Positions 1-63,882 of a stretch of DNA of 64,000 bases are shown piece after piece (the stretch's first letter is position 1; each line of letters begins with the position of its first letter). Made by a program: the position numbers and the translations under genes. The notes beneath the pieces are model-generated. The model worked only from the letters and a program-made list of their open reading frames with translations, did not search any database and had not been told where the DNA came from. Source of the DNA: Heterotrichella gracilis (taxonomy: Eukaryota > Sar > Xanthophyceae > Tribonematales > Xanthonemataceae); assembly GCA_032358255.1 (NCBI GenBank), contig JAULBX010030375.1, positions 1-64,000 of the forward strand, in the 5' to 3' direction.

Positions 1-3000
1 CAGCCCCCCCCGTCCCCCCGCCGCACCCCCCCCCCCCCCGCCCTCCACCACACCCCCCCCCCCTCCACCCCCACCCGACGGCACCCGCACCTCCTCTGAC
101 CGCCCGGGCCAGCCCCCCCGCAACAGCCCCCTCCGACGCTTCTTCAATGATCCTACAGCTCCCCCCCTCCCCCCGCAACTCCACTGAGCGGAAAGAATTG
201 CTGGATGCAGCACAGAGGCGCAGCGAGTTCCTGTCGTCGAGTACCAGCACGCCGCACGATGTACGTCTAGGGTTTAGGCTCGGAGCTTATGGTTTCTACA
301 ATTCAGGGATCAGGGCGCTGGATGCCGCACACTTTGCGGCCAAGGTTGTAGGGTCTCTATTGTCCAGTATCAGCCGCGCCCACAGAGTAGGTTATTACCG
401 CCCAGCAAAAGGAGGTTCTGCATTGTCACTGCCACCTATGTATGTTGTTGAAATTGTCATTTGGACCTAAGAGAAGCATGAGCCATTTTATTTCACCGTG
501 TGAAAACCAACCCAACACCATGAAGCTTTAAAGGTATTTATTTATAAACCTTGAAACCCTCCAGGCTGCGTGGGAGCCCGGCGGCCGCGACTGGACCAAC
601 CAGATCGAGAAGGACCTGCACCGCACCTTCCCCAACCACCCGCTCATGGACAGAAGCGCGCGCAATGCAATGCGGCGGGTGCTGGCGGCATACTCCATGC
701 ACAACCCTTATGTAGGGTACTGCCAGGTGCGCGCACAACCCTTAATCAGGGTTGTACTGGGGTTTGGATGCAACCCTAACGTGGGGTATTTTTCCATGCG
801 CACCACAATGCAGGGAGTGCCAGGGGCGTACTTCAAGCGCAACCCTTGATTAAGTACTGCCAGATGAACTTCAGTACACATGCACCTATTTTAACCCCTT
901 CAGGGCCTTCCCAAGGCATGAACTTCATCGTGGGCGTACTCCATGCGCAGCCCGGCCCTTGACTATAGTACACACACACACACACCCTTGTTATGCTCCT
1001 CTTCCATGTTCCCAGGGCATGAACTTCATTGTGGGCGTGCTCCTGTTCCTGCTTGAGGAGGAGGACAGCTTTTACGCACTGTGCACAATAGTGGAGGAGC
1101 TGCTGCCGGGCTACTTCTCAGTGGCAATGGTCAACCCACAGGTGGGTGGCGGGGGTGGGGTGAATATGGGGATGGGGGTGGGGATGTACTTGTGCATGCA
1201 GAAGAGTCTGCTCACAAGCAGTTGCTGTGGTTTACTCCTGCGCCGCTACATTGGCACCAGCGGGTTCTGCAGCCTTGCCACCCCTACCCCTCATCAACCG
1301 CAGTGTGTCACGCCACTCACACAGTGTGCCCCATCCCATTCACCCATCCCTCGCCTCCACACATCGTTACCAACACACCCACACATCGATGGCGGTGTGG
1401 CCGGCCACTCTGCCCACCAATGGTTTCAACCTCCCACCCCACAGATTGACGGCAGCGTGTTCCGGCACCTAGTGCGCACACACTTCCCCCGCCTGTCAGC
1501 CCACCTGGACTCCCTGGGCTGCGACATATCGGGCATAACCACCCAGTGGTTCCTGTGCTGCTTTGTGAACAGCCTGCCCCTGGAGAGCTGCCTGCGCGTG
1601 TGGGATTTGTTGTTTTATGAGTGCTCCATTGGGGTGCTGTTCCGCGTGGCGCTGGCAATGGTGGACATGAACTCACAGGTAGGCGGATTGGAGGGTTTTC
1701 TTGGTAGCCTGGGTAGGGTTCTGTGAGGGAACTAGGTTTTGTGGTAGGGTTTCTGGTGACACGCCATGTGTGAGGAGCTTGCTGTTGTACAAGTGCTGGA
1801 TCGGGGATGGGATGGAGGGTGCACCTGCAGCACAGTAGGGTTCCTTGTGGCTATTAGGGTTTGCCTCTGGTGTGCAGCTTAAGCTGTGAAGTAAAGGTCT
1901 TTGCATGTGAAAACGGCTGGTCGCTGATTGCTCCATGACGGGTAGTACCAAATGGTGCACGTGCTCCCACCACCCCCGCAAGCCCTGGTTACCATGACTT
2001 ACTCCAATTGCAATTTCACGGTCCTCCATGCCATTATGTATCCCCCCAACAATTACCCCATCCCCGCAGGCCCTGCTCACCATGACCGACTCCATCGATG
2101 CCTTCACAGTCCTCCAGGCCATGGCGCCCCGCTCCTTTGATGCCTGGCACCTCATACACCTGTCATGCCTGGCGTATGCGCCTGTGGACCAGGAATGCGT
2201 GCACACCATACGGGAGCAGTACCGAACCGCGGCCCTGTCGTCGTTCCAGGTAAGGCCAGCTAGTTTTGTTGCAGGCTGCGATGAATGCCTGTAAATAATA
2301 TTATTATGATTACCGTTATTATTACTTGCAATTCCGGACAGCGGCCCTGTCATCGTTCTAGGTGCGGCCAGCTGGTTTTTGTGACAGGCAGTGATGAATA
2401 ATTGTAGTTGTCGTTATAGTTATGATTACGATTGGTATTACTTGCAATTCCGTGGCCAGCTAATTTGTTACTCGCTGCAATTGAAGTAGGGAATGCGGCT
2501 CAATAACGCTTACGGATGACAACGGAAAAGCGGGTGGGGAAGGGTTATTGGTACGAGGGTGCGGGTGGGACAGCGCGGGTGGAAGCCTCGCATACCATAC
2601 AGGACATGATGATATATACAGTATAATGTGCTACCAACATTGCAACATTTTTTATGGGAACCCTTTGTTGGAGTTTGAAGTAGGGATTTGGGTTTTGTAA
2701 ATTTCAGTGCTGCTTACCCATGCGCAGGCGATGATGGTTGGCGTGGGCGAGGGGGAGTCGGACGACGAGGACGATGAGGGGAGGTCACCAAGCCGCATGA
2801 GGGGGGGGATCGCAGGGCCTGCGTCTGCGTCACCCAAGGGGGGTAACATCACTGCGCAAGGGGATGACAAGGTGCTCCTGCGGGCGCTGGCGCATGCCTC
2901 TGCACAGGACCTGGATGCACTGGTGAACAGCCCAGGAAAGGATCAAGCGGTGAGTGGAAACTTTAATAGAGTCAACAGGGAGGCCTTACCAACTACGGGC

Positions 3001-25413: not shown

Positions 25414-28212
25414 TCAACCTACAGTCTTGAAACTACACCTTTTACCAGGCCAACTATGCGCGCCTCTTCTTGCTACCATCCCTCCCAAGGGCACTGCTTG
25501 CCTTCCAACCCAGCCGAGCCAGCACCAGTGGAGCTGTACCGGCAGCGCCACCAGGCTGAACAGGTGCACCAGGAGGCAGCAGGCAAGCACTGCAAGCTGC
25601 AGCAACAGCCACACACCGCTCTGCCACTCAGTCAGGCCAGGTGCGCCACCCAGCAGCCTTCCACGGCCCAGCACACCGATGCTGGCTGGTGCCAAGTCTG
25701 GTGGAGCCGCATCCCACCCGCTGCGCATGTACACCGGCGCCTGGAGCTCTGGCAGCCTGGGGAAGCAGTGCTGCTGCCAGGAGGGTGGTGGAGAAGGCTG
25801 CTGTGGCGTCTTTTCCGAGTTCGCCTGTTGGAACAGGTCCACCAGCACACCACGCTCCACACGGCCGACACCACTGGGGACCCTCACCAGCTGCTTGCCG
25901 CCACGCATCCTGTGAAATGCTTGTGCTGCCCCAGTTGCGCCACCACTCTGAGGCAGCAGAAAGGCATCCAGCGGATGCGCCCTTGCTGTGTGCAGCTGCT
26001 GCTGCACTGCTGGGAGGTCTACAGACGGATCGCGGGACTTGAGGCTGTTGTACCTTGCACAGGTGGACACAGGTGTAGGGGTCAGGACCGCAGGCAGGAG
26101 CTGACTGCTGTACCTGGCAAAGGGGAACACAGCTCTAGGGATTAGGGTTTAGGGTTTAGGTCCACAGGAAGAATGCTGCACTCGAGGATGTCAGCAAATG
26201 AGCACGGCGCAAAGGTGAACACAGCTTTAGGGTTTACTGGTAGGGTTTAGGTCCACAAGTGGAGTACACTACGTTGCTGTACCTTGGGTAGATGGGCACC
26301 GGTCCCGCTGCAGCTGACTCAAACAGCTTGTTGCAGTGCGCCAGGTTGGTGAAGGCTGCGTCGATGTCTGAATCCCCGGTCCTCGGGGTGGGGACGCTCT
26401 TGCTGCTGCTGGGATCTGTGCTGTCATACAGGTCGTTGGGGCTGAAGGTCTGGGGGGTGGTATGCAGCGCTCGCAGCATAGGCGGCGAGGGCATGTCGTT
26501 GGGATCAGGAAGGGTCTTGGAGGCCAGCAGGATGGTCAGCGCTGCAGTGAAATGGAATGCTTCTGAGGCAGGGGGGTCGGCGCACGCAGCAAATGTTTCT
26601 GTTTGACGGTCCAAGTTGGACCAGGGTTTTGGGAGAGGGCGCACCAGTCGTGTCCAATTCTGTTGCATAAACTGCTGAGATCGGGGGGTCGGTTGATGCC
26701 CATGCAGCAATTGCCACAGGTGAAGACCCAAATTGTGCCAGGGTTTTGGAGGAGGGCGCATCAGGCTTGGCTGCTGAGAAAACTTCTGAGGCTGCGGGGT
26801 TGGCGGGTGCATCAGTTGCCGCAGGCAGGAGGAGGCCACATGCTGCGAGGGTCTTCGAGGAGGGCGCATCTGAACTGTCAAGTGTTTCTGTGAAACCTTC
26901 TGAGGTTGCAGAGTTGAAGGGGGCTAACGCATCATCTGCCATAGGTAGGAGGCTACGCCGCTGTATTGGCTGTATAGCAGAACCGACGTCAACTGTGACT
27001 GGATCCTCAATAGGTGTGACTGCAAGGGTTTTGGAGGGGGAGGCATCTGGCGTGAACAGGATGTCCCATTTCAAGCTATTGCGATGCGCTTGGTCTTCTG
27101 CCTGAACCTCCTCCTCGACGGCATGCTTTCTCTCCTGCGGGGAGTGGCAAAACAGAGTTGGGACAGGGTTGCTTGTGTGCATACCCTAATGCAAATACAC
27201 ATTTCACATGCATTTTTCAAACAGTGAGTCTCCAGTGTTATTAACTTAGCAGACTGGCCCAGAGATCACAACAATGTGCAGCAACTGCTATTGCAAATAG
27301 TGGGACTGTGTCATACCTCTAGCAGTTTGATGTCCTGTAGCAGTTGCAGTTGCAGCTTCTTCAGCCTGTGGCTGTGGCCTTCCAGTATCCAGGAGATGTA
27401 GCTCTCGTTCTCTTGTGCCAGCGTCTGTGCAGGCAAGCCCTGTGCCACTGGTGCAGCGCTGCTAGCGGTGCTGTCGCAGGAGGCTGGGCAAGGTGGGGTG
27501 AAGATTCCAGTGGCAGAAGAGGAAGGTTGCCTCTGTAAGGACAGCCTGTGTGTGATGGTAGAAGCCTGCGAGGAGTAGATCCGAGGTTATTAAAGCATCT
27601 TCAAAGAGAGGTGGTGGTCCCGGAAACAGGGGTTGTGTTGGTCTTGCATATGCATGCACTGAAATTTCCTGTCAACGTTGTACTGTTCGTCTGCTGTTGC
27701 TGTGCCAAACAATGGTTTGGACGCCCTTAGAATATGGATGTCCACAGATGCCCTACCTTTGACTGCCTTTTGTTTACAAGTCTTCCTGTTTGTGGTTCAG
27801 CTCCCTTTGGCATGGCCTCTGTCTCGGTGTTGAGGAGGGACTTCATGTCTGTGACCAACTGGCTGCTTTCCTGGAACTTCTCGATCTGCACCTGCATTCC
27901 TCGCATGCCTAGGGAGGTTGGTGACTTGGACGTCCTGACATCGGAAAGCCGCGGGGTCTTCTGTCCTCTTGGCGTTCCTGGCTGATAGGCCTCGCTAGGG
28001 TTGACGTTGCGTGCCCTCTTTGCCAGGGACTTGGGGCGACGTTCAGGCTTGGAACCGCCTTGAGAAGTGAGCCACGAACGTTCGTCCCTTGTGTTCACCT
28101 TCTCCTTCTCCTTTTGCTCCTTTGGAACCTCTGCTTGCTTGACCTTCGTTGCTGTCCCCTCGCCCTTCTTGAGGAAAGGCTTGGTAGGAGAGGGAGTTGG
28201 CTGGCGATGCAT
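25414..28212 (-). CDS. Unrecognised protein with KPFLKKG motif, SKTLA repeats and a C-terminal membrane helix; one frame break
   Basis: I do not recognise the family. Exons: 28212-27757, 27565-27317, 27134-26283, 26053-25414 (an alternative in-frame acceptor gives 26113). Exon 1 starts MHRQPTPSPTKPFLKKGEG and is Lys/Arg-rich. Exon 2 ends in an amphipathic helix (HRLKKLQLQLLQDIKLLE). Exon 3 has four to five degenerate repeats, each around [PS]SKTLA. The last exon ends with a hydrophobic stretch near VWLLLQLAVLACCLLVHLFS, a possible tail membrane anchor. In exon 3 near 26615 the frame must shift: aligned with the preceding repeat there is one extra base, and without it the total would be divisible by three. 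It is either an assembly error or a lesion. The N-terminal motif resembles that of the adjacent CPAP gene. Confidence 0.55.
26053..26283 (-). repeat. Triplicated splice edge GTACARCAR before the last exon
   Basis: AAG/GTACAGCAACG (donor of exon 3, 26283), CCAG/GTACAGCAGTC (26113) and CAAG/GTACAACAGCC (26053) are related. They are separated by AACACAGCTYTAGGG and telomere-like GGGTTTAGGG blocks. The last two are both usable acceptors exactly 60 bp apart, so they differ by 20 residues in frame. Confidence 0.65.
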
Positions 28213-30369: not shown

Positions 30370-33300
30370 ATGGCGCCTCCCATGCGGCACCAGCTGCGGC
30401 TGGCACTCACATGCCTGCTGTTGCTGGGAGGTTCGCTACACTCAAATGGGGTACTGGGGGAGCAAGGGGATTTAAACGGGGAGGAGGAGGGGTTGGGGAG
30501 CAAGGGGCGGCGCCTGGCTCATGTGAAGAAGAAGTCAGGTGAGGGGGGCGGGCCCGTAGGGTTTCGGGTAGGGTTTTGCGGGGCTGCTGGGGCAGTAGGG
30601 TTTGTGGTAGGGTTTTGGATGGGCAGGAATACCTGGCCAGTGTGAAAAAACTCAAAATGCAGATGGGCTGCAGGGTGTGTGGCAGCTATGGTGGGTGGGT
30701 GAGTAAGTGGGTGGGTGATGGCGGATGCAAGGTTCTCGTATTTGGGCATAACTGAAGTCGATTGGGGTGCATTCCGTCATGTAGCATATCTATTGGTGGC
30801 GCGTGTGGGATAACTCTGGCAACAACATTGCTGTGTGGCCAGAAGGGTCTGCAGAGGTTATGGCAGATTGCTTTCACTAGGTCATTGGCCTAGCATTGCA
30901 CCACCACAGGTTCTTGATGGCAGAATGCACGTATGGCAGGCATGGTTTTGGGCTAGCATGTTATGCATGCTGGTCACATGTTGGCATGCTGGGCCAAAAC
31001 ACGTTGGTCAATGTGCCTCCAAGGTTCCATGATGGCACAAATTTTGTAAGGCATGCTGGCTCAAAGGACCCTTGGTCAGCCTGCTGGTCTGGCTGTGTTG
31101 TTGGAATGCATTTGACTAAGTACTCAAAGGTTGCAGATTTGCCTGCATGCACCAGGGTTTAGGGTTTTAGGGTCCATCGGTGGATGCAATGCCAGGATTG
31201 GATTCATTCAGATGCTAGCGCCACCAGAGATATGTGGGTAAATGGGATGATGCCAGGGTTACATGGGGGATGTGTTTTGGTTAGTGCCTGTACATTTATT
31301 GGTTGCATGGTGAGGCCTATCAGGAAAACCAATAGCTGGCAAAGATAAAACCAACCGGGGATAAGTGGGGAATGCATCATGGCCTTTGGTTGTGGCTTCA
31401 GTCCCCATGGATACCTTCCCCACATGCCTTGGTGGCCAGCTTCAGCGCCCTCATTAATGAATATCTGGATTCAAATGCCCATGCTCAGGATAGCTGGCTA
31501 GGATGCTAGGATCAGTGCCTGCAACGTGACGCTGTGTAACCCCCTTGCAGGCCATGTGTCAGCCAAGAAGAGCCCACCCCCACAGAGGTCCACCTTGTCT
31601 ACCAAGAAATCCCCGCCACCACACAAGAAATCCCCACCACCACACAAGAAATCCCCGCCTCCCAAGAAAATGTCCCCGCCTCCCAAGAAAACGTCCCCGC
31701 CTCCCAAGAAACGCTCCCCGCCACCACACAAGAAATCCCCACCCCCCAAGGCGAAATCTCCACCCCCCTCCACAGTTACTGGTAGTGCCCCTACTTCCCT
31801 TTTATTGAACCCCCCTTCCCCTTCCCCACCCCCATCCCCATTCCCACCACCGCCCCCATCCCCACCCACAAAGTCCCCATCACCACCGCCAGCACCACCA
31901 TCACCATTGCCACCATCGCCAAAACCACCATCACCAAAACCGCCAGCACCAAAACCGCCATCGCCCAAGCCACCGTCACCCAAACCGCCATCCCCCAAGC
32001 CACCGTCACCCAAACCGCCATCCCCCAAGCCGCCGTCGCCCAAGCCGCCGCCACCAAAGCCGCCATCACCACCACCACCGTCCCCTCTATCACCGCCACC
32101 ATCACCACCACCTCCATCCCCTCAGCCACCGCCACCTAAGCCGCCACCACCCTCCCCTCAGCCACCATCTTCCCAGCCGCCCCCTTCCCCGTCGCCATCA
32201 CCACCACCACCAAGCCCAGACAGCCCGCCCCCCGAGGGTACACACCGCCCCAGCCCACACCATGCCGCATTCACACACACTCACGTGCACACACACACAC
32301 ACACACCTGTCCCCCCCACCCACATGTGGCATACACCACCCACTCACCCACTGCCAACACCCCCACCGCCCACCCTGTCATACAGCAGCACAATCCTGCC
32401 TGTCACAAAACCCTCCCCACCTGGTTCCCTCCCCAGGCTCCCCCTGTACCACCACGCGCGCTGTCCACCATACATGTGCCTATCACAATGACGCCTCTGC
32501 ACACAGCATACTCCTGCGTGTCACGAAACCCCTACCCTCCCCACGTGCTCCTCTCCCTCCTCCCCACACCAACCCCTCCTGCGCCTCCGCCCCCCATGCC
32601 CTGTTTTGCCAACAAACATGTGCCAATCATCGTTCACCTGCACACACTACACACCCCCGCCTGCCGTCCCACCCACACCCACACCCTTTCCTCCTCCCCT
32701 CCTCCCAAATACCAACACCCCCCTCCCCTTCCCTCCCCAGGCCCCCTGTCAGCCCTTCTCAACGCTTCCCTGCTCTACTTTGAAGCCCAGCGGTCCGGTG
32801 TCCTCCCCAGCAATAAAAGGATCCCCTGGAGGGGGGATGCAATCACAGCTGAGGCCACCTCCGATGGGAAGAATTTGGTGGGGGGGTACCACAACGGGGG
32901 GGAAACCGAGTATCTGAAGATCACGGGCCACACGGCACTGGTGGTGACACAGGTGGCCTGGGCCATGCTGGAGTTCCCAAAGGTGGGTAGGGTTTTGGGC
33001 GAGGGTTTCTGCTAGGGTTTTTTCTACGGTTTGAGGAGGGCTTGGGTTGGAGGGTACCACTCCAACGGAAGACGATTTCGTGTAATCGAGTTCAAAAAGC
33101 CTACCAGCCACACAGCTTCTGGTGGTGACTCAAGTCGCGTGGGCGATGCTGAATTTCATAGGTGGGTGGGGTTTGGCTAGGGTATTGTCTAGGGTTTAGT
33201 AGGGTTTATCTAAGGATGATGGCCAGGGATGACCAGTGACCTGGGCACTGCTGAATTTCCATGGGTGCGTTTGTAGGGATTCTAAATGAATACCACCCCT

Positions 33301-36300: not shown

Positions 36301-39300
36301 ATGATCGAAATGGGTGCGTTGTCAAACCCATGGGTCCAAAATGAAGTGTGTAATTTTATCCAAGCAAATTGCAAACCAGGTCTACAGGTATATGGGATGT
36401 CATGCTGTTTGTGGGTCGAGCCATCTTCATGCGCATGTGCATGTGCTGACTGCGCATCGGCATGTGCTGACATGCGCATCTTCATGCGCATATGCATGTG
36501 CTGATTGCGCATCTTCATCCGCATGTGCTGACTGCCATGTGCGACCCATGTGCAGGTCTGGCAGCGGGTCTCCTGCAGTTCTCATCCTCCATGCAGTGCC
36601 AAGGGAATTTGGCCACCCCAGGCCCAATCAGCCTCCCCCCACCAGGGCCATTGGGCCCCGGCCCACCCTCCCCACCACCGCGCCCCCCCCTGCCCCCCTC
36701 CCCTCCACCACCGCCACCAGTCCCCCTGGGAACCAAGAGCCCACCACCACCTGTCCAATCCCCACCATCGCCCGTATCGGGACCCGTCAACAGCCCCTCC
36801 CCCCCACCACGCCCCCCCAGCCCGCCACCCAAGCCACCACCGCCACCCACCCCACCAGCCCCGCCGCCACTCCCCCTCTCTGCGCGTACGTTCCCGCCCT
36901 TAATACCCTGCAAGCCCTGGACGTTAATACCCTTCCCTCCTTCCGTGCATGTACCGCAGTGTCTCCCCATGACCACACCCTGTGCATCGGACCCAGCATG
37001 CCAGCAAACACCCTAATGGTGTGCTCAGATACCCTAAGAACCTGCAAGTGTGCCTGAAATTCCAAAACTCCTCTTACCCTTCAACACCTCATCTCTGTGC
37101 ACCGCAAGACCCTCGGCTCCACCATCTAGGGCACAGCGCTAAATCCACACGCCAACCCCTTGCGCTTGCCACGACTCATAAGGTGTCCAAAACACTCGAT
37201 TCCTGTCTTCAAAGCCCTAATTCCTGTGTCACCAACCCTTATATGTGTGCTCTCCAAACCCTGAACCCACCTCGTCTTCATGCAGTGTACCGAGACACCC
37301 TCAGCGCCACCCTCTACTTTATGAGGCGCAGCGCTGAGGAGACCTGGCCAGCGCCCTGATCGCCAACTCTTAAATCTGTGCCAAAACCCTATTGACATGC
37401 CCAGAAACCATCCTGTTGGTGCTAGACAAACTGCCCACCGCACAACCCCTCCTAACCCTGAAAACCCTATTCTTCGTGCAGTGTACCGCGACACCCTCAG
37501 CGCCACCCTGTACTTCTACGATGCGCAGCGCTCCGGAGACCTGCCTGCCAATAACCGCGTGTCCTGGCGGGGCGACTCTGGCCTGTACGACAACGTGACC
37601 TTTAATGGCAAGCTGTACAAGCTGGATGGGGGCTACTACGATGCAGGAGGTGGGGCCTAGGGGTTTGACTGGGGTTTAAAGGCTGATTTGCGCGAACGGG
37701 GTTTGGGCGGTGCGGTGTAGGGTATGTGCTGGGGACAACATAGCGTAACACCCAACGTAACACCCATGCCACCCGCCCCTCAACCCCGCCCCATGCCCCT
37801 TGCCCAAACTCTCCCACCCCTTGTCCCCTCCCCTGCAGACATGCTCAAGTGCACCTTCCCCCTCGCCCTGGCGCTCTCCCAAGTGGCGCCGGCGGTGCTA
37901 AAATACCCCCTCCACATGGCATAAACTCTCATGCTAGGTGTTTACAAACCCACCCACCCACCACCACCCACATACATGCACATACAGCCCTCCCTCAACC
38001 CACCCACCACCACCTCTGTTCCCTCCCCTGCAGACATGCTCAAGTGCACCTTCCCCCTTGCCCTGGCCCTCTCCCAAGTGGCGCTGGCGGTGCAAGAGTT
38101 CCCCGCTGCCTTCATCGACACCTCCAACATGGGCTACGTAACACAAATGCTCAAGTGGGGAGGCGACTGGCTCATGAAGGCGCACTTTGCCCCTGATAAG
38201 CTGGTGGTGCAAATGGGCCACTCCCAGGATGACCACAACCACTGGACCCGCCCCGAGGACATGGATTGGACCAGGCCTGCCTTCTATGTACGCCGAAAAA
38301 CCCTAACAAAATGTTTTTTACCCTAGCTGGCCATTACCAAAATCCTGCCATATGCATGGGCCCGTATTACTTAGTAGTAATGTTGGAATCACTCGTTGCC
38401 ATCACATGATCTTACATTGTGGTCACTTGGCCACATCGCGGTGCTGCAATTTGCCCACCAACTCCAAATTTACCGACCCCCATAAATGACCCCATCAATG
38501 CCTTTTGCCTGCATACATGACCCCCTAAATAGCCCGCACATGGGCCCCTGCTTGACTCTCCCCTCCCCTCCGACCCAGGTTGACAACCAGAAGACTGGTG
38601 CTGACGTAGCGGGCGCCACCTGCGCCGCCATGGCCTCCATTGCATCCATATGGAAGAAGATCAACAGCACCTATGCCAACGAGCTGGTCACACACGCCAC
38701 ACAGCTGTACAGGTGGGACGGACGACGTGATGACATCGTGAAATTCGTTTAGATTAATAAAAATAGAAATAGAAATAGAAAATAAAACAGTGGGATTTTG
38801 TCCTATGGGCACACGCATTGCAGTGGTACAGGTGTGAGGGGAAACAAGGGATCATAGTTCACAATACTAAATCCATTGTTACTGTTTACTTTTATCCAAT
38901 TTCTGCTGCAAGTTCAACCCCGTCTGTACATCTCTCACATGTGCCCATGCAAACTTCACACCTGACCTCCCAACCCCTAACCCTAAAACCCTTACCCTCC
39001 TCCGCAGCTACGCCATCAACAACCGAGGGGTGCACACCAAGTGGTTCTCCTACTACGACGTCATCGCCTATGCCCCCTCCACCAACGACCTTGATGACAT
39101 CTGGTACTGCGCTGCATGGCTGTACAAGGCCACTGGGGATGATGCGTGGAAGACCAAGGCGCAGGCGCACCAACAAGCGTTCGGGTGAGCAACTGACTAC
39201 GTGAACAAAAATTAGAAGTAGTGTGAGGGAGAGCGTGACAGTAAAGGAGGGATGTACCGTATCCAATTAATCCATCCCATGATCCAAAATTAAGGATGAG

Positions 39301-41280
39301 ATGTGCGGGATCATAGCTCCCTTCCCTCATGATCATATTTAATCATGATCACATATAAATCCTATTTTGCATTCCCCCTGCTGCTCTCCTCGTCGCCCCT
39401 CATGATTGCATTTGTTTCTTTTTCCTTAATTCCGTGATCCCCATGCGCAGCCCCGCGATGTACACCTGGCAGGTGTGGGGATGGGACAACAACGCCTGGG
39501 GAGCATCACTGCTGTCTGCCATTACCCCGGGACTGGACTACAACAGCTTGGGGGCGGCGGATATCACCGAATTCTCAAAGCGCTGGGTCCTAGGTAAGGG
39601 TTTTTGGTTGGCGCTTTGGTAGGGTCTTGATTACGGTGGGCCCAGGGGTTGAAAATCATCCCAGATATGCTGATGTGACCCTTAAATGCGGGTAGGATGG
39701 AGGCGCTGGAAACAGCAACGCGCTGAGTTTCAGTAGGGTGCAGGGGTTGGAAGCGTCTCATGGCCGTGCTTCAAGGTGGGGTTAGGGTGCTCGTTTTGGT
39801 AGGGTTCTGACACAACTGCCCTCATCCACCTCCAACCACCCCCCCACTCCCGCACCCCCTTGCCTGGACACCGTCCCCCCACAGGGGTTGATGAAGGTGT
39901 TAGGGTTTAGGGTTTTATTCATCTTATTCACTGTTTCCCCATTTATTAATTGTTATCCCCCCCTTTTTGCAGGCCAAGGTGTGGACACCGTGACCCCAGG
40001 GGGGTTAATGAAGGTGGGCGACTGGGGGGTGCTTCGCTACAGCTCCACCGCCGCATTTGTGGCCCTCATTTGGAGCAAATACTACGGGGACGCGGGGGTG
40101 AAAACCACCTACCGGTGCTGGGCAAGGGGACAGGTGGGTACTGTACTCAGTGCATTTCTACCACCTGGAAACAATGAAAGAAACAACTACAGAAAGCAAA
40201 AGTAAGCGTGCCAAGAAACATGGGAAAGAGGGACGCCCATAATGCGCCCCAATCGACCTCTTGACCAACCCTGAATACTGTAGTGGGAATCAAGGGTCCA
40301 TGGCCCGTCGCCAGTTCCACAACCATCACCTCGCAGCCTGAATGACCACAAATAATATGACCTGAATTACAGAGAAATGAACAGCAAATTACCGTATCTA
40401 AACACCTAAAAAAAAATTCTGCAGATCAACTATGCGCTGGGCAACAACCCTCTGAAGAACAGCTACGTGGTGGGCATCAAGGGGCCCTGGGCATCCGTGG
40501 TGACATCCCACGAGCACCACCGCGCCGCCTCCTGCCCCGACAGGCCCGCGCCATGCGACTGGAACGCTTTCAACAACCCCGGGCCCAATCCCCAGCTCTT
40601 GAAGGGCGCCCTGGCGGGAGGGCCGGGCAACAACGATGATTACCAGGATGTGAGGAGCGATTATATGAAGAATGAAGTGGCGCTAGACTTCAATGCTGGG
40701 TTCACAGGTAGGGGGGAGGATAGGAGTATGGATGGCTTTCAAATTGACCTGGTCCACATGTGGGGAATGGATTTGAGTAGGGTTCTTTGTAGACCTATAG
40801 GGTTTGCGCTGGGCTCCAGTAGCTCCATGGTGGTGGCTTCATTGGTAGAATGAAGTTGGTATTGAATGTATTGCCACATTATCATATGATTTATATTATA
40901 TATGATTATAATATATCATATCATATTATGATATGATATCAACTTATCATAATACATACAATTCAAGCCATGTAGAATTGTTGGCTACATTGATGATAAG
41001 TTGGTGGTAATTGTTTTGAATGTATTATGATGGAATCATTGTCATTTATTAATTGTTTGCTGCTTGCATTGCAGGTGCCGTAGCCGGGCTGGTTGACTTG
41101 TATGATGAAACCACCTGCACCTCAGACAACCCTGGGCGCTACACCTTCCCGCCCACCAAGACCACGCAGAGCATCGGCACTGCCCAGCCATTCGTGGAGC
41201 CCGACCTGTGCCCTGTGCAGATGTGCAGCAAGCCTTACTGGGCATATGGCTATGACGAAATTCTGGCCAAGCATGGTTGA
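30370..41280 (+). CDS. Secreted tandem GH9 cellulase (two GH9 domains joined by extensin-like linkers)
   Basis: GH9 enzymes cleave beta-1,4-glucans. Eighteen exons keep phase: 30370-30538, 31551-32237, 32741-32982, 33334-33438, 33879-34087, 34419-34598, 35093-35255, 35613-35750, 35973-36252, 36556-36885, 37482-37649, 38034-38287, 38579-38712, 39008-39184, 39451-39593, 39973-40133, 40425-40707, 41075-41280, giving 1342 residues. A signal peptide ([18 protein letters not shown]) is followed by a (K)SPPP-rich region to about residue 285, GH9 domain 1 (about 286-745), a second Pro-rich linker (745-834), and GH9 domain 2 (835-1320). Domain 2 has the full active site: DAGD at about 888-891, HEHHR, and [11 protein letters not shown] with the proton-donor Glu near 1264. 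In domain 1 these are NGGE (about 337-340), NFKGA, and ADANLDF, so its catalysis is doubtful. The Ser-Pro blocks suggest hydroxyproline glycosylation and a cell-wall location (inference). Confidence 0.95.
31551..32237 (+). repeat. Extensin-like (K)SPPP / KPPSP repeat exon
   Basis: The 229 codons of GH9-gene exon 2 are almost all Ser, Pro and Lys. The first third repeats KKSPPPHKK / KKSPPPKK with period about 24 bases; the rest repeats [10 protein letters not shown] and SPPPPSP. Such SPPP blocks are typical of volvocine and other chlorophyte wall glycoproteins. Confidence 0.9.
33048..33266 (+). repeat. Two decayed copies of GH9 exon 3 end
   Basis: 33048-33166 repeats exon 3 from the GGGGTACC...AACGG region through TGGTGGTGACTCAAGTCGCG and GGGCGATGCTGAATTTC to the donor GTGGGTGG. 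A second, shorter piece at 33216-33266 has GTGACCTGGGCACTGCTGAA then TTTCC. Both lie in intron 3. Confidence 0.85.
33500..33527 (+). repeat. Copy of GH9 exon 4 donor edge
   Basis: CTCCTTGCTGGTGGTGCAG/GTAAC repeats the exon-4 end CTCATCGCTGGTGGTGCAG/GTAAG (33420-33443), including the donor. Confidence 0.8.
34313..34375 (+). repeat. Upstream copy of GH9 exon 6 acceptor edge
   Basis: CCTCAG/ATTTGCTATCACCTACCC then TGGCTCCACCGCCACC repeats the exon-6 start at 34413-34455. It keeps an AG acceptor and then diverges into CTAGGGTT sequence. Confidence 0.85.
34694..34795 (+). repeat. Downstream copy of GH9 exon 6 end
   Basis: GGCTATACAAGGCCACAGGG through ACCTCCGGAGGGTGCGTGCTGGG repeats 34516-34612 at over 90 percent by eye, donor included. 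No acceptor precedes it, so it is not a complete exon. Confidence 0.9.
36425..36555 (+). repeat. Intronic minisatellite CATGTGCTGA(C/T)TGCGCATC
   Basis: About five units of TGCGCATCTTCATGCGCATG and CATGTGCTGACTGCGCATC precede the acceptor of GH9 exon 10. Units vary from 20 to 36 bp. Confidence 0.8.
37283..37360 (+). repeat. Upstream copy of GH9 exon 11 start
   Basis: TGCAG/TGTACCGAGACACCCTCAGC ... CTCTACTTTATGAGGCGCAG repeats the acceptor and first 60 bases of exon 11 (37476-37545). The copy has shifts and a TGA. A second acceptor is therefore present about 195 bp upstream of the real one. Confidence 0.9.
37828..37925 (+). repeat. Upstream copy of GH9 exon 12 start
   Basis: CCCCTGCAG/ACATGCTCAAGTGCACC through CCAAGTGGCG repeats the acceptor and first 60 bases of exon 12 (38025-38095). 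It then runs into a TAA. The copy still encodes the catalytic Asp and [15 protein letters not shown], but has no donor. Confidence 0.92.
39870..39915 (+). repeat. Fragment copy of GH9 exon 16
   Basis: CACAGGGGTTGATGAAGGTG precedes TTAGGGTTTAGGG and resembles GGGGGGTTAATGAAGGTGGG of exon 16 (40001-40020). Short, so less certain. Confidence 0.5.
40862..40945. repeat. AT-rich palindromic tract in the last GH9 intron
   Basis: Repeated ATATCATATGATTTATAT, TATAATATATCATATCATAT and ATGATATGATATCAACTTATCAT form overlapping inverted repeats. No gene content. Confidence 0.7.
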
Positions 41281-52370: not shown

Positions 52371-55300
52371 TCAGTAGGTTGCGATGCTGTTTGTGTTGCT
52401 TGTTGTGGTGAGCGAGGCCAGGCCCCTGCCCTTGAGGTCCACGTGCGCCTGCGCCTGGTCAAGGTGGAGGCGGTGCACCTGCAAGATGAGGGAGGGCAGG
52501 GTGGGGTGAGCGGGTCCATGGTAATGCCAAAGGGTGGTGCACCTGGGGGAAAGAGGCACTAAGGCTTTCTTGACCCTTTACCCTCACACCAAACTTGTAT
52601 GCAAGCGCCCCAATGTCAGCCCTGTACAGAAAACAACCGTAAAATCACACCCCTTGACGCCCAGTACACACACCTGCATGCGCCACTATCTCAACTCTTA
52701 AGCCCTAAGTCTACAAATTATACCCCCACCTGCATGCGCAGCGCAGCTATCTCTGCATCCTTCTCCTCCAGCTGGCGCTGCAGCACCGCCAGCAGGTCCA
52801 AGGGGGTGGAGTGGCTTTCTATACCCTAAACCCTTAGCACGAGCCCACCTGTCTAAACCTTAAGAGGAAAAAAACACAGTATACCGCACGACCTGAAGCC
52901 CTAGGCCCCCACCTGCATGCGCAGCGCAGCTATCTCTGCATCCTTCTCCTCCAGCTGGCGCTGCAGCACCGCCAGCAGGTCGGAGGGGGTGGAGTGGCCG
53001 GGGGGGCGGTGGGGGGCGCCGGGGGGGGAGGAGGGGGGGGACACGGGCGCGGCAAAGGCGTTGTTGGTGGTGGTGGGTTCGGAGGGGTCGTGGAGGGAGA
53101 AGTGGACCTGCAGAGGGGTGTGTGGAAAGGGGGGGTAAAACATGGGTTGCCACCACAGGAGGGTTTAAATTTCTGGAACAGGCTGGACCTGATGTACATC
53201 ACCAGGACCACTAATTGACCAACTTGGAATAAGGAAAGGCGCAAAAGATGCAGGAATTGCACGCAGAAAAAGAGGCAAGCATGCCGGCAAGATGCACATA
53301 CTGCACGCAAACAGAGTCTCTTCACAATGCGCCCGCCAAAAAGGCCCTAATCCCCTAAAAGAGGCACAAAACACATGTCATAAGCCGCCAAAGCGCACGC
53401 ACCCTGACCACCGGCTGCGTCCGCTGGCCCGTCTCCAGCGTGTGGTACTTGCGCCCCATCTCCCCAAATAGGTCGGACACCAGGGGGCGGGGCGCGGCCA
53501 GCTCGGCGTCGTAGGCCGCGTTGCGTGCAGCTGCCGCGCCGCACATGGAGGCAAACGCGTTGGCGGCGGCGGCCTGCGGGAAAACAAATTTCAACATAAT
53601 AAGGGGGGGAGTTTATTGGGTTATTAGATGGCTGCGTTTGCACATGGGGGCAAACGCATTGGCGGCGGCGGCCTGCGGGAAAAACCAACTTCAAAACAGA
53701 GGGACAGCTACACCAATGAAGCTCTGATCAAGCAAACCGATCAACTGGCACCCTCCAAAGCCGTCCATGACCAGTATCCCACCACTGCCACACTGTCCAC
53801 CTGAGCAACTAGCACCCTTCAAAAGCAACCCCAAGACATTCAGCACCCCTCCATCGCAGCCGCCCATCCCCATCACTCACCCCTGCTTGGGATCTGGGAG
53901 TCCCCACCAGTGGGGTGGGAGGTGGTGGCAGGTCGGCCGACGACGCCTGCGTTAGTGCTGAGGGGGGGGAGGGGGTGCCAAACTGGAGGGGGGTGGAGGT
54001 GCCGCTGGCCGATATTGAGCGGTTCATACCATAGATGGCATCGCCCATGTCCTGTGGGGGGGAGGAGGGTCCTCGTTAGGGTTTTGCATTGTTGCAGCGC
54101 CAGGTCACCAGGGAGGGTCTAGGGTCAGGACTAGGGTACAGGGTCAAAGGGTCAGGGCCAGGTTAGGGTACCAAGGCACACATCCAACCCATCCCACTAT
54201 CAGGGAGCCGGGCTAGCGCTGTGCGCCCCTCCCAGAGCCCGCCGCATGCACACCAGTGCATGCATGGGATGGGAGTGTATCAGCAAAGAGCAATATGCAC
54301 TTGTGCATTTGGAGCCAGGGCCTGTAAAAGGTCAGGGTTAGCCTAGGGTAAAAAGACACGGTATCCAATCCATTCTACAACTAGATAAACTCGGCCCAGG
54401 GGCTGTGCGTACCTCCCCAGACGCGCGCCGCATGCACTCCAATGCGTGGTCAAGGTTGGGCGTTGCGTCCGCCATGAGCGACCCGCACTTGTGCAGTGAG
54501 GGTGAGTCGGGTGACCCGTCAGGCTGCGCCCACATGGCCCCCTTGAGCGGCACCAGCAGCACGGGGCAGGGGGAGTGGTTGAGCAGGTGGGACTCGGGGT
54601 TGCCGGTGCCTGCGGGTGTGTGTGTGTTTTGGGGGGGTATAAGGCGCGGGTGGGGTGAGTGCGTGGATACTGTTGCCTGCAATGCTACGCCATGCGGAAT
54701 GACATGGGTGGCACCTGAGAGCCCTTGCCATGCATATGGCTGCTGAGCAAAAGGCCGCCATGGGGCATGCACTTGAGTAGAAGCGGACACACTAGGCTGC
54801 CATGCCATCCCATACCATGCCATGCAACACCATGTCATGCAATTGCCAGGGGCCTGTCCCAAAAAGGGTTGTTTTAACATGACTGCAACGCAGCGCCATG
54901 CTGCGCCACGCCATGCAACGCCATGCGCCAGTACCTGAGAATGCGCGCATGAATATTGGCTGCTGCACGCCACTGTGGCCAATGATGAGCAGGTCGATGC
55001 CCTCGTCGGAGCAAAACTCAGACAGGGCCTCGCGGGGGTTGCCCTGTAAATAGGTGAAACCGGGGTGGTGGGTGGCGGGTGATATGAAGGGGATGCAACA
55101 GCGGTGACATGGTGGGAAGAGGTGCAACAGATGTGGCATGGGTGCATTTGGCACTACCAAGGGTGCTGCAATATCTTAAGATGTTTAGGATTTTGCAGCA
55201 CCCTCAGTAGGTACAGTACTGCGGTGCACCTGTGCTGCTCAGGGCTTTGCACCTTAGGGTTTCAAGGGCTTGTAGTTGAGGGTTTATGGTGTGTGCACAC

Positions 55301-58300
55301 CCCTGCGTAGCATGCCCAGCACTGCATTGGACCCGTGCAGCCCAGGGTGTTGCAGCCTAGGGGGTAGGGTTTTGAAAAGCAGGTTTTCAGGTGTGCGCGC
55401 ACCCTGAGTGGCACGTCCAGTATTGTGTCAGAGCCTTGCAGCTCAGGGTTTTACAGCTTAGGGTTTAGGGTTTGCGTTGCAGGGTTTAGGGTGTGCGCGC
55501 ACCCTCAGTGGCACATCCAGAATTGCGTTGTAGCCGTTCAGCTCGTCTGCCCCAAACTGCGTGATGTCAACTTCTGGTGGCGGTGGTGGCTCGCGGGGTG
55601 AGGTGCGGGTGCCGATGCTCAGGCGCCGGCTGGGGGTGGGGGCGGGGGGTGTCAGGTGTGGCGGGCAGGAGGGGAGGAGGTGGGTGGGTGGGGGGCGCAA
55701 CTTGCAAGGCATTATGCACAAAGAATGAAAGAAATTAACATGAATAAGAAGAATTAAAACGTGCTCCGGGCAACGCACCATGCACAGGTTACAATACTAT
55801 ATCTCTGAAGTTACAATATTACATCTTTAAAGTTATTCAGATAACAACAATAATGCATCTGTGTGTCATGACATTCTGATGGCTCCTGTGTACGTGATTT
55901 CAGAACAAAAAAAATGCCTGCCTGTATTGCACCCATCCTGCGCATGGCCACCAACATTGAGCTCTGCGCCTCCTTGGGTTCTTGGCAATGCGTATATATA
56001 TGCATGTGCATGTGCACAGTATATGTATATGCAGTATGTAATGCAGGATGAGATGCGGTTGTTTTCCCCATTTAGACCCTAATCACCCTAAAGGAAGTGA
56101 CTGTTCAGGCTTGGTGGGGATCATGTACTTTGTTATAGTTTTATTGCAGGTGGAAGTTCTAGGATTTAGCGGCCAGCAGGCAAGACCGATGCGCTTGAAC
56201 GTGCTCCAGTGCTAGGCAGGGGTGTCCTAACCCTAAGGGTAATCTAAGATAGGTATTGTCGTCCCCCTAGCAACACAACATGCCCTCCAGCTCCCTTGCA
56301 ACTCCAGGAACCTCCGGCAATCGCAGCTATTGTTTTTTTTCGGGTTTCCCCCCCCCCTTCCACCTCTCATCGCTGCTATTGTTGGTGCCTGGGGCCTGCC
56401 AATGCTGCGTTGCTGATCCGTCTTCTTCTGTTGGGTGTTTAAGAAGGGCCTGGTGGAGCCTCGAGGAGTCAGCAGTATTGTCTGAATACCTGTCAAGACC
56501 TTGAGGCTTCATCGGGCCTGTCTTAACACCCAACAGGCGGCCACGACTCAACATCGAGCGTAAGCAGGTCCCAGGCACCAACAATAGCAACGGCAGCATT
56601 TGCAAGTGACTACATGGCCGGCCAGGGTGTGGGCTGCACTGGTGTGCATGACTTGTACATGCATGGGAAACTTTATACAGGGAGCGATCACAGTAGTGGG
56701 TGAAAATACCACAAACTACATAGTTGAAAGACTAGTATTACGCCGCTGACCCTGAAATACTAGTAATACATGGTGCAACATAGTATCACAGTCCCCCTGG
56801 CAAACATTTGCATAGTAGTCCCCCGGCTTTCCTATTTGCAGCTCATTTAAAGTTGACGGTTTCTAGGGTCAGTGGCGCACCCCAGGCTGCGCATGGGCGC
56901 CAGCACCGACTGCTGCGCTGCCTCCGGGTCCTGGCAGTGCACCACGTAGATGCAGTCGGTGGATATCACACACTCATACCACTGCACTTTTCAAGCAAAT
57001 TCCCACTGTTTCCCACCGTCTTCCAGAGTTGTTAGGGTTTCTAGGGTCAGCGGCGCACCCCAGGCTGCGCATGGGTGCCAGCACCGACTGCTGCGCTACT
57101 TCCGGGTCCTGGCAGTGCACCACGTAGATGCAGTCGGTGGGGATGACACAGTAGGCGCGGGCCCAGCGGATGAGCTGCCTGCCCGCATCCGGCGTGTCGA
57201 ATGCGATCACCACCTTGCGCTCCTGGCAGCCAAAGCCCACGATCTCGTTGCCGGCCAGGGCGGTCAGCTCGCCCACGTCGCCATCCTGTAGGTGAAGCAG
57301 GGGTGGGAGGTCAACGCTGCAACGTATTCCACAGAATAGGGGGGGGGCGCGGTGGGAAGCTGTTTTTTGCCTTTTTAATGCCCACAATCCCGTTGCCAGC
57401 CAGGGCGGTGAATTTTCCCATGTCGCCATCCTGTAGGAGCAGATTTTGGGGTCCATGGTGCGATCAATTCCACAAACATAGGGGGGAGGGATGATGGGGG
57501 GTGGTTTTTTGGCCTTCGAATGCCATCACCACCTTGCACACCTGGCATCAAAGGCCCACAATCTGATTGCTGCCTAATGCAGTGAGCTTGCACACGTTGC
57601 CATCCTGCAGGTGTGCACGTAGTTGCGAGTGTGGTGTGGATGTGCGTGTGTGTGGGGGGGTGTTGCACGCATCGCCGGTGCACCCACTGACTTGATGTGC
57701 ATCTCGTTTAGGGTCAGGGTTGGAGTTAATGGGTGCAGGGTGTAGGGCACGTACCGGTGGCGCCAGGTATGCCGTCAGGTCCTGCACCGACTTGATGCGC
57801 ATCTTGTCGCTGCGGCCCACTTGCTGCAGGGGTGCACACACAGGCAGGTTAGGGTTTAGGGAGTGGGTTTAGGGTTTAAGATTGTGGTGAAGCGTTAGAC
57901 GATGTAGGCAGGTTGGGGTTCCAGGTTTGGCTCCAAAAACAGGTCAAATTGAAGTCCCCCAAGGATGTGGGCTACGCTCCAGGGTGCACACACGGACGGG
58001 AGGGACAGGATCAGCACACTGCAGTAGGATTGCAACCCACAGTGGACCTGGAGAGCATGTAGCGCATGATGCACACCCAGATGATTCAGCATTCTGGTTT
58101 GGTCCAGCATTTGTCACTACTCCCACCTCTGGCCTCACCACCATGAACGGTACTGCCAAAATTGGCCCCAGGAAATGGGTGGTGCTTAGGGTTTCAGGCA
58201 CTCGGCTTAGGGTTGGGGCTACTAGGGTTAAGGTTTTACATGTAGGGTATATCTCCAGCACGTACCTCTGGCCGCACCACCACGAAGGGTATTGCCGACT

Positions 58301-60460: not shown

Positions 60461-62184
60461 ATGGCTTCAGACAGCCCTGCAGCATCCGTGCTATACCACA
60501 TGCTACCCTTGCAGACGTGGGAGGAGTGCCAAGCAAAGGGCGAGCCCTACTACCCAGCGACCTACAAGCAGGCAAGGGCTGGGGCTATGGCTAGCCACAC
60601 AAACATCTCAACAGTATGGCATGCATGTGGGGCCAAATGTATTGGGCTCACGCACTGCAGGGACCTCTTTGTTTTGCGGAGATAGGGTCTTCAGAGGAGT
60701 GAGCAGTTGGTTGTAAAGAATGCCCTCTGCCACACACACCACATACGCGCCCGTATGCATGCGAAGCAAACGATCATTGCAGCACCTGTCGCGGCGCAGC
60801 CCTGCACCCATAGGGTGCTCCTGCTTTACCCCATGTTGCAACCACAGCCAGCAGGCGCTACGTAAGTGCCTTTGGGTCGTTTGCCCCAAAACCCTTATTT
60901 AGGGTTTGTCAACCAGCCACTTCCCGCCTTGCCCCTCCAACAGGACCGCGTGACCCACCTCAGCTCTGACACCTCCTGCTGCTGGCCGTTGGCAATAATT
61001 AATCTAAGTCTACGGGTGTATATCTCCCTCCCCTCCCCTCCCCTTCCTGCCACCCATTGTACAGTTCCCTCCCCTCCCTTGCGCACCCCACCCCCTACCC
61101 CTCCCCACTGGCAAATAACCCTTGCAAACAAGCACCATACCCAGCTCACCCCTCCAACCTCCCTTCCTTTCTCACAGGACGGCTTCACCCACCTGAGCTC
61201 GGACACCTCCTTGCTGCTGTCCATCGGCAACCACTTTTACATTACGATAACCCTGTGAAGTGGACAAATTTTCCCTCCCTGCAAAGCAGCTCCAACCCAT
61301 TCCTTGCCCGCTCCCCTCCCCTCCCAGTTCCCACTGAACTCCCCTTTCCATCCACAGGACGGCTTCACCCACCTGAGCTCGGACACCTCCTTGCTGCTGT
61401 CCATCGGCAACCACTTCTACAAGGGCTCACAGGGCCAGTGGGTGGTGCTGGAGCTGGACACAGCCAAGCTCACGCACAAGGTGAGAGGCAAATCCTAGCA
61501 AAACCATACAAACCTTAGACCTTTTGTGGATCCTATGCCGTTTGTGGTACTGGAGCTAGACGCAGTCAAGGTGTGGGGGACCCTACTTGTACATTCTACA
61601 TGCAAACGTAGGTATCACACTGGGATAGGGCGGGGCTGTCACTGCAGGACCTGTGCCTTCTATGAACTCCTCACAAAGGACTCAAGAGGATTAGGAACGA
61701 TATCACACGCTGCATGCATGAGGCAGCGACCTACTATACTAATGCTCAAACTTTGAGTCAAAGCCTGTACAGCATGGTCATGGTTATCATCGCGTCCTTG
61801 GTTCTGATGTCTCATGAACTCGAGATCCTGTGCAAAGTGGATGCAACATGAACGTCCTCGCCATACCTCTAACCAGTGCATTAGAAATAACCACCCTGAA
61901 TTAATTTCTGCCATCGGTGTCACAACCCCACCGTATGCCTGCAGGTGATATTTGAACCCGCAGCTCCTGTGGGCACCACCCCACCCACCACATTCACCCC
62001 CTCTTCCTCGGATGGTGCCGCTACCACCACGACCAGCCAGCCGCCAGCTGGCGAGCCCCTGTTCCCCCACCTGTATGGGCCCATTGATCTGGCGGCGGTG
62101 GCGGGGGTGCACGCCATTGAGCGGCGGGAGGAGGATGGCGCCTTCCTAGCCATTCCTGTGCTGGGACTGGGGGCAGAGGCGTAG
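60461..62184 (+). CDS. DUF952-family protein
   Basis: Small proteins of unknown reaction; the family is widespread in bacteria and plants. Exons 60461-60571, 61358-61480, 61945-62184 give 157 residues. Family features: YHMLPLQTWEECQAKGEPYY, DGFTHLSSDTSLLLSIGNHF (the conserved DGFIHxS-like block), WVVLELDTAKL, VIFEPAAP, and LFPHLYGPIDLAAVAGV. The first intron starts with GC (AAGCAG/GCAAGGG), because no GT donor fits the phase. A Thr/Ser-rich insert (TTPPTTFTPSSSDGAATTTT) separates VIFEPAAP from LFPHLYGP. Exon 2 has two dead copies in the preceding intron. No targeting peptide is obvious. Confidence 0.9.
60936..61250 (+). repeat. Two upstream copies of DUF952 exon 2 start
   Basis: 60936-60995 (CAG/GACCGCGTGACCCACCTCAG, ...GACACCTCCTGCTGCTGGCC) is the more decayed one. 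61172-61245 (CAG/GACGGCTTCACCCACCTGAG through GGCAACCACTTTTACATTAC) is nearly identical to the real exon start at 61355. Both keep AG acceptors; the second hits TGA after ITITL. Confidence 0.95.
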
Positions 62185-63022
62185 GAAGTAATTTTGAGTT
62201 GGTGTTTGTATGATATGTACATGACATTGAAGGGGCGCCCGGCTTTGTGTGGGGTTACACGTCCATATCTTGGATAGTATGGCCAGGAAATCATAATCAA
62301 TGCCCAATTCAGAAAACAGTATGATAGAGTAGGCTGGGCGGGACAAATGCCATGTAGTTGATGAAGTTTGCAACATTTTTCACCAACAATGTATTCAAAA
62401 TATTGTCAATTGCCAGCCACCCACATACCCGCATTGCAGTTTTATTCCAAAACCAATGTCAATATTGGTGCAAGGTACAGACTGTTCAACAAAGTATGAT
62501 GAAACCGATTAGAAGGGAATTGGTATGGCTAGGACTCCTCTCCGAGATCCCATTCCATAGCCAACGGGTTAACCTGGCATAGCAGGATCTAGGCGGTGTA
62601 GCATCAACAAATAGGATAAAGAATGTGATGAATAGGACTGCTCTAAAGCTAACTAGCGCCGCTGAGGATTGTATAAGGCTGACTGGTGTCCCGGCAGTAT
62701 TGCTGGACTGGACTGGACTGTGCTAACTATGTTTTCAGCGTACAAATTGTGCCTGCTCCAAAGCCTTGCAGAGAAAATTTAGTGGAAAATGCCAGATAGG
62801 TACCTTGCCATGGCCAGTCAAGTACGTTTCCTAATCACCCCTGGCGCGCCAATGTCGTCACCTGGCGCGACGGTGAGCGCATGCATCCGCTGCACAGCCA
62901 TGTCATGCAGTGCTGCTGGCAGATCCGTGCCAAGGCCACCGCCAGATGCTCCACCGCAATGCCAGACGGCGCCACCGACATGAGGCCCAGGGGGAGTAAC
63001 ATTTAGCCCCTCCATCATAACT
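62185..63022. other. Interval between convergent DUF952 and PfkB genes
   Basis: 3' flanks of both genes. It includes the PfkB terminal-exon copy at 62838-62985. A short CTGGACTGGACTGGACTG repeat lies at 62704-62721. No other gene seen. Confidence 0.5.
62838..62985 (-). repeat. Decayed copy of the PfkB last exon beyond its stop
   Basis: GTCACCTGGCGCGACGGTGA, GCGCATGCATCCGCTGCACA, GCCATGTCATGCAGTGCTGC repeats 63030-63110 of the terminal exon. Diverged about 20 percent by eye, with no long open frame. Confidence 0.85.
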
Positions 63023-63882
63023 TCATCCCGTCACATGGCGCTGCGCCGAGCCCGCGGCGATCGCATGCACCCGCTGCGCCGCGTCGTCATGCAGCGCCGC
63101 CGGCGGGTCCCGGGGCACCGCCTGGTACTCCGCCATGATGCTGGCTGCGGCGCAACCCCACTCCCCCGCGCGCCGTATGCCCTCCCCCGCCTGGAGCGCG
63201 GCCAGGAACGCCCCGCAGAAGGCGTTGCCGCAGCCTGTGGTGGGTGGTAAGGAGAGTGGGCAGCGCGATTAACAGCGTGGTCCGACGTTCAGAATCAGGT
63301 GGCTAATGGGAAACAGGAAAATGCTGATATCAACAGTGGATGTTGGAATCGCCGGACTCTGCTCGGAGCAGGGCTATATGGGCCTTTACCATGGGTGCAC
63401 GTGGGAAAGGAGCCTGCAGACATGCGGCGAGTGTTAAAGGGGGTGGACAAGCGAAGCACCCTTCTAATATACAGTAGCCATGCAGATGTGTGACGTTGCA
63501 TGGGGTGAAGAGTAGCTCGCTCTTAACGCACAGCGCCATGCGCTGCACACATGCGCAGACCTCAGACATGCCCACTCATCCCCACCCATCGTACCCGTCA
63601 CATCCACCACCTGAGTGAGAGGGTACGCAGGCACATGCCAAACCTCCCCACCCTCCCTGCTCGCCACCAGCACCCCCTGGGCCCCCATGCGCAGCGCAAC
63701 CACCTCCCCTCCCGCACCCATCATCTTTTCCACCTGATCCCAGGGGTCGGCACTGGGCCCCAGCAGGGATGCAGCCTCGTGCTCATTGGGAGAAAACACA
63801 TGGCAGGCGGAGAGCAGGGTGTGTAATTGTGAGGGGGTGAGCTGGCGCTCTGCTGCTGTGAAGGGCTCTATAGACAGCCTGC
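63023..63882 (-). CDS. PfkB-family kinase, C-terminal part (5' end outside window)
   Basis: PfkB/ribokinase-family proteins phosphorylate sugars or nucleosides. Exons 63882-63595 and 63234-63023 are visible; the acceptor at 63883 (TGGTGCAG) shows that earlier exons lie beyond the window. Motifs: LLSACHVFSPNEHEAASLLG (NxxE substrate-side motif), VALRMGAQGVLVASREGG (the MGAxG strand), and the anion-hole signature DVTGCGNAFCGAFLAAL, split by the intron. The usual G-A-G-D has become G-C-G-N. Asn at this position also occurs, to my knowledge, in the MAK32-like branch, so this may be lineage type rather than damage. Which substrate it uses cannot be told. Confidence 0.82.

Follow-up and report, generated by a model that had tools for sequence, protein, structure and literature searches.

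Copies of exon edges within introns of Heterotrichella gracilis and their probable origin in small local tandem duplications

The window, by which we mean the whole stretch of DNA under study, comprises bases 1-64000 of contig C783 from an assembly of 68.5 Mb in 903 contigs. With a GC content of ~55%, it contains Pfam matches to TBC, GH9 (two stretches), USP, DUF952 and PfkB together with a Tcp10_C (CPAP) gene at 18759-19481. All gene models are ab initio and stem from a purpose-written gene finder trained on the sampled DNA, according to which 5' and 3' splice sites read CAG/GTGRGT and TGCAG/G (slash, junction). Long proline-rich linkers precede the GH9 stretches at 31551-32237 and around 36556-36885, four tandem genes (~69% identical, 2.4-2.7 kb apart and F-box/LRR-like by eye) occupy 8623-17546, and a minisatellite with ~4 units of 230-252 bp (5516-6427) lies beside the predicted gene 2734-5435. 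Scans of the window with Rfam (gathering thresholds) and for tRNA gave no match, nor did a comparison of 9000-12000 with a phage collection.

By eye, 21 pairs were seen in alignments of the window in which the edge of an exon recurs a short distance away. Copies recorded in the window (decoys in the following, where they carry an exon edge) include these, the one at 798..863 coming from an intron search:

798..863, + strand: decoy of the 3' edge of TBC exon 565-726, in intron 727-1015
915..942, + strand: decoy of the 5' edge of TBC exon 1016-1141, spacing 101
1970..2034, + strand: decoy of the 5' edge of TBC exon 2070-2294, spacing 88
2328..2452, + strand: 3' part of TBC exon 2070-2294 and sequence after it, spacing 112
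26209..26257, - strand: decoy from predicted exon 25617-26134 (5' edge), accompanied by telomere-like sequence, spacing 92
33107..33197, + strand: decoy of the 3' edge of GH9 exon 32741-32982, spacing 180
34295..34352, + strand: decoy of the 5' edge of GH9 exon 34419-34598, spacing 101
34697..34820, + strand: decoy of the 3' edge of GH9 exon 34419-34598, GT included, spacing 181
37252..37346, + strand: decoy of the 5' edge of GH9 exon 37482-37649, spacing 197
37814..37909, + strand: decoy from the GH9 exon that ends at 38287 (5' edge, preceded by AG and the end of the intron), spacing 196
39865..39899, + strand: short repeat of a GH9 exon piece, then GT and a telomere-like tract, spacing 117
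52723..52815, - strand: decoy (97.8%) of the 3' edge and 5' splice site of exon 52913-53107, USP-region gene, spacing 183
53640..53694, - strand: decoy of the 5' edge of exon 53403-53573, spacing 99
54146..54307, - strand: decoy of the 3' edge of exon 54413-54609, spacing 180
55214..55544, - strand: array of ~3 units with the edge of exon 55503-55629 and telomere-like tracts, spacing 103 bp
56858..56972, - strand: decoy (93.9%) of the exon edge at 57036-57150, spacing 178
57377..57613, - strand: exon 57059-57285 copied twice at its 5' edge, spacings 145 and 319
58125..58186, - strand: decoy of the 3' edge of USP exon 58266-58360, spacing 139
60940..60995, + strand: older decoy of the 5' edge of DUF952 exon 61358-61480, spacing 414
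61173..61241, + strand: recent decoy (98.6%) of the 5' edge of DUF952 exon 61358-61480, spacing 180
62871..62926, - strand: copy of segment 63055-63110 from PfkB exon 63023-63234, spacing 184

A separate search of the window returned 18 fragments in 16 of 70 predicted introns; 7 of these fragments are additional to the 21 pairs seen by eye, and the resulting ~28 come near, yet do not reach, the more than 30 fragments counted by a sequence-only reading that preceded our analysis. Full alignments of the strongest pairs repeatedly show what this reading had described: the edge of an exon recurs in the adjacent intron along with its splice site and a few to some tens of intron bases. Among the genes it had named as carrying copies, TBC, GH9, USP, DUF952 and PfkB are confirmed by Pfam, while two entries were not confirmed: self-BLAST, alignments and the intron search revealed no copies at the Tcp10_C gene or the model 20944-24948, and the fragment tested for the FkbM assignment lacks a Pfam match. 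The region so assigned (43999-45311) holds two arrays with units of ~195 and 200 bp, ~three each, in which by eye exon tails are repeated on the minus strand, each ending in a 5' splice site; these arrays (43999-44581 and 44825-45311) may add a few exon-edge fragments to the ~28.

Exon-edge copies in introns are genuine and far more frequent than expected by chance. In total, we analysed 282 kb of the 68.5 Mb (0.4% of the genome), with 65% of the sample coming from one contig. When predicted introns of at least 100 bp were compared with their flanking exons (score 30), 70 of 235 contained a direct copy of their own flanking exon and none an inverted one, against 0.40 introns expected from non-adjacent exons. 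Upstream and downstream exons served as source 42 and 36 times, respectively, and 45 of the 53 stronger copies (score 40) extend to the splice junction, i.e. end within 5 bp of it. Since the gene finder might have learned telomere words (see below) as 'intron', it was retrained on sequence with these words swapped for random bases; the masked models so obtained have own-edge copies in 42 of 170 introns and 0 inverted (control, 4/1307), so the share of sampled introns of at least 100 bp with such a copy is 25-30%. In 234 kb (the C1 and C100 pieces being left out, and 48 kb added afterwards, with the gene finder then retrained), 305 direct 14-mer events compare with 7.2 per shuffled replicate. 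In the window alone, self-BLAST found 41 direct repeats up to 3 kb apart, gene paralogues and minisatellites included, as opposed to 2 inverted repeats at any distance, only one of them local. The short spacing described before holds up as well, with 196 of 238 events at 40-260 bp. Introns with copies have a median of 326 bp (n=70) and those without 240 bp (n=165), which fits growth by duplication, yet longer introns also give copies more room. Of 46 young events (identity at least 88%), 19 belong to the edge classes, so part of the edge excess may be better-retained similarity.

As for the shape of the events, 59 of 238 non-redundant ones are full tandem duplications (aligned over at least 0.9 of their spacing) and 179 fall below 0.9, a split obtained by BLAST with a low-complexity filter, which shortens alignments. 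Full arrays of exon tail and intron head occur at C783:161370-161635 (three units, 104 bp) and C300:14112. What qualifies the earlier reading is that several of the most similar pairs match over far less than their spacing: pair 61173/61353 (98.6% identity) matches over 69 of 180 bp and pair 52723/52906 (97.8%) over 93 of 183 bp, both with poorly matching spacers, and in the 61173, 52723 and 56858 pairs the aligned part is only 38-65% of the spacing. Spacers were single-copy in the genome in 8/8 cases tested, using a search that skips simple repeats. Short matches and unique spacers therefore mean that plain tandem duplication does not suffice for these pairs; sequence may have been deleted, the template switched a second time, filler inserted, or the spacer rapidly eroded by indels. 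Spacer and flank are similar at z>3 in 29 of 77 pairs, a figure inflated by multi-copy arrays and telomere words, and from this similarity some of the incompletely aligned events may be decayed duplications. Intron parts beside real and decoy splice sites resemble each other beyond a permuted null, clearly so for copies of upstream exons, whereas for downstream-exon copies the similarity is weak and gone at 50-80 nt.

By spacing, the edge events (n=98) divide into 56 at 50-125 bp, 9 at 126-160, 26 at 161-205 and 7 above. This distribution is bimodal (~50-125 and ~160-205 bp): unimodality is rejected at p=0.0025, and a model with two modes is accepted; with intron-only and intergenic pairs, which are fewer (n=50), a single mode is not rejected (p=0.115). 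The preferred sizes are thus ~100 and ~190 bp; the long class has the size of a nucleosome repeat, and a nucleosomal cause is our guess. The option that long spacings represent two short steps around a decayed middle copy found weak backing (mean z 0.98 over 12, two above 2). At C783 151500-151839 (L011), an N run adjoins identical 77-bp copies spaced by 101 bp and is perhaps a collapsed array.

Telomere-like DNA at the junctions was, like the two spacing classes, absent from the sequence-only reading. The interstitial motif is the species' own telomere repeat, with CCCTAAA arrays found in the first 100 bases of contigs C70, C140, C526, C609, C717, C770 and C824. (Telomeres of Edaphochlamys debaryana are given as TTTAGGG in PMC8226300.) Taken by themselves, the arrays at contig starts and the GH9 and Tcp10_C genes would suggest a green alga with centrioles. 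Genome-wide, exact AACCCTAAACCCTAAA occurs 3695 times and a reversed control word 0 times. In 35 of 47 decoys a telomere 7-mer is present no more than 40 bp from the exon-side junction, vs 270 of 946 windows elsewhere in the same introns, and with masked models in 12/26 vs 56/341 background windows. The short class accounts for most of this (26/31; middle 3/3, long 6/13; short vs long, Fisher p=0.023), also with masked models (short 10/16, long 1/9). Measured from the join, the nearest tract lies within 3 bp in 10 of the 47 decoys, at 4-10 bp in 12, at 11-25 in 11, at 26-45 in 3 and further away in 2; in 9 it is absent. Given that tracts often reside inside the duplicated unit rather than at the join (e.g. 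in the C300:14112 array) and that the decoy's other flank is enriched too, albeit less so (23/47, p=0.003), the tract may be carried along instead of being causal. Introns read in gene sense favour CCCTAAA over TTTAGGG (1658 vs 600 7-mers, 241 vs 104 clusters; masked models, 642 vs 264), and this excess could come from strand-specific breaks or from avoidance of TTTAG/G acceptors. A seemingly strong intron preference of telomere words (31.9 vs 3.8 per kb in intergenic DNA) proved largely circular because the gene finder had learned these words; masked training leaves a modest contrast of 19.1 per kb in introns, 10.4 in intergenic DNA and 2.4 in exons. An excess of telomere words in the shortest introns was set aside over the same doubt about circularity.

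Could the copies serve as alternative or mutually exclusive exons in mRNA? GT or AG is kept by 33 of 47 decoys and some copies are predicted as exons with lengths divisible by three (57386-57430, 57560-57604). At the divergence of the exon parts, 37.7 intact sites would be expected (p=0.10), so there is no clear selection keeping or destroying decoy splice sites; nor is there much of an excess of AG just before decoy starts (14/26 vs 10.7) or GT just after decoy ends (7/21 vs 6.1). Over 70 copies, mismatches between exon and copy at codon positions 1, 2 and 3 number 90, 87 and 163, the pattern expected from one unconstrained and one coding copy, and 25 of the 70 have gaps: decoys drift without coding constraint. 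Moreover, copies are partial, with the exon exceeding its copy by >30 bp in 48 of 53 cases, which agrees with the earlier remark that whole exons are almost never copied. For NOG2 and NOP2, PDB homologues align across predicted introns and lack the repeated peptides that the predicted proteins gain wherever the gene finder took a decoy for coding sequence. In ATP sulfurylase, a homologue aligns on both sides of an unmatched stretch and inside that stretch lies such a repeat. Based on the unconstrained drift and the NOG2/NOP2 homologues, use as alternative exons seems highly improbable to us.

A different origin would be intron gain by tandem duplication within an exon (the AGGT model), which makes the intron exactly the duplicated unit. 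While direct tandem duplications of about intron size are common here, our copies bear an edge of an existing intron and their spacing equals intron length in 0 of 47 splice-anchored cases, a set picked for edge reach. We have rejected the model for these copies on that ground and regard it as very unlikely. An introner-like or transposable element family, or else an assembly artefact, might be suggested by the regular sizes across several contigs and by one N run inside a 101-bp array. Introner elements are recurrent small insertions that affect introns and, in some lineages, are nucleosome-sized; they are copies shared across genes, whereas the present ones are local and gene-specific. They match their own gene and not others (the cross-gene control quoted above), have no related copies in unrelated genes, and all tested spacers are unique, so mobile elements, as the sequence-only reading had argued for introners, can be rejected. 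A median identity of ~0.90 among anchored copies is unlike that of assembly duplicates, and this whole group of explanations strikes us as barely credible.

Local tandem duplication with a breakpoint in the exon, as proposed before, remains the best-fitting account of the direct-only orientation, the adjacency, the resemblance of intron parts (clear for upstream-exon copies), the arrays, the drift and the longer introns, and we consider it likely that edge copies are scars of frequent small direct tandem duplications across exon-intron boundaries. The duplicated unit would be bounded by a breakpoint tens of bases inside the exon and by a second one within the intron. Splicing would go on using the copy that adjoins the rest of the gene, leaving the protein unchanged, and such duplications would be tolerated because the extra copy gets spliced out. 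Its surplus exon edge and splice site would turn into intron sequence and decay neutrally, with the intron being longer by one unit. Selection would mostly eliminate duplications that stay inside an exon or take in an entire one, a possible reason for the prominence of edge copies. How the duplications form we infer separately for the two classes. The short one (~50-125 bp) may start at interstitial telomere tracts, either by a fork stalling on the G-rich repeat so that the new strand slips back into the exon, or by a staggered break that is filled in and touched by telomerase. For the long one (~160-205 bp), back-slippage by one nucleosome or long staggered breaks may be envisaged. Taken further, interstitial telomere tracts might be fragile seeds in genes, where forks or breaks copy the nearest exon edge ~100 bp back, a second route does so at ~190, and introns grow in fixed steps. 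This we offer as a tentative idea that is possible though by no means probable; if true, intron length would be set by telomere-linked mutation, not transposons, and introns would fill with telomere DNA and decoys.

The observations on telomere words could alternatively mean that the copies derive from interstitial telomeric insertion. Apart from the arrays at contig starts, the abundance of the exact motif and the 7-mers adjoining short-class junctions, there is precedent: in horse, interstitial telomeric insertions are described with direct duplication of the flanks at a few loci, as arises when a staggered break receives a telomeric insertion (PMC7215372), and for plant telo boxes telomerase action at transcription-linked ends has been proposed (PMC3022908). 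Such an origin nevertheless appears unlikely, as a tract within 3 bp of the join is confined to the 10 decoys noted above, the tract and its neighbours belong to the duplicated unit in arrays of the C300:14112 type, and the long class has a tract less often with either set of models. Our motif is like the interstitial telomere sequences of human and horse or Arabidopsis and rice in that a species' own telomere repeat is scattered within chromosomes and telomerase at breaks has been proposed; it differs in adjoining duplicated exon edges in introns. The intronic share of such sequences in human is reported to be compatible with random insertion (PMC7215372), and Arabidopsis is said to have a lower telo-box frequency in coding sequence and introns (PMC3022908).

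Tandem duplication is a known source of new introns, described for a potato RdRp gene (PMC4974935) and for Drosophila (PMC2891723); in the potato case an existing intron-exon structure was duplicated and the first intron has an 83-bp tandem duplication (PMC4974935). Like these intron gains, the copies reported here are small direct tandem duplications with exon sequence and splice signals, but they differ in that an old intron usually lengthens and the exon edge is left unused. The event itself is thus ordinary, while its density, the two-size pattern and the telomere association are out of the ordinary.

Intron lengthening without transposons is, to our knowledge, poorly documented. The best matches in open papers (titles and abstract openings) included none that describes introns in which copies of the adjoining exon edges are widespread. 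Reportedly, Schiml and colleagues (2016) obtained local direct duplications of tens to ~100 bp from paired nicks (staggered single-strand breaks) in plants, and ours are likewise local and direct; theirs was a system of experimental breaks that is not known to involve a telomere tract or a splice-site context. Since the genome keeps a graded series of scars, from near-identical down to the detection limit, these could be dated and counted, and the copies could be used to test how splicing bypasses many intact-looking decoys beside real sites. If causal, the telomere link would tie interstitial telomere DNA to gene architecture.

The extent of edge copying may vary across the genome. Counting introns of any length, copies are present in 55/220 on C783, 15/42 on C300 and 1/7, 2/15 and 2/9 on other contigs; short samples from three further contigs gave 0/5, 0/2 and 0/12 predicted introns (0/19 together), with direct repeats being detected by self-BLAST in two of these three. 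One locus (L022 on C700) has 12 copy-free introns and few telomere words, unlike C783 and C300. In the bacterial-looking pieces (30 kb), self-BLAST found no direct repeats at 50-330 bp spacing. These come from C1 and C100 (L013, L014, L016), which are low in GC (36-37%), and on 10 kb of C1 the long, densely packed ORFs have, by eye, a bacterial appearance, so a bacterial companion seems to be included in the assembly.
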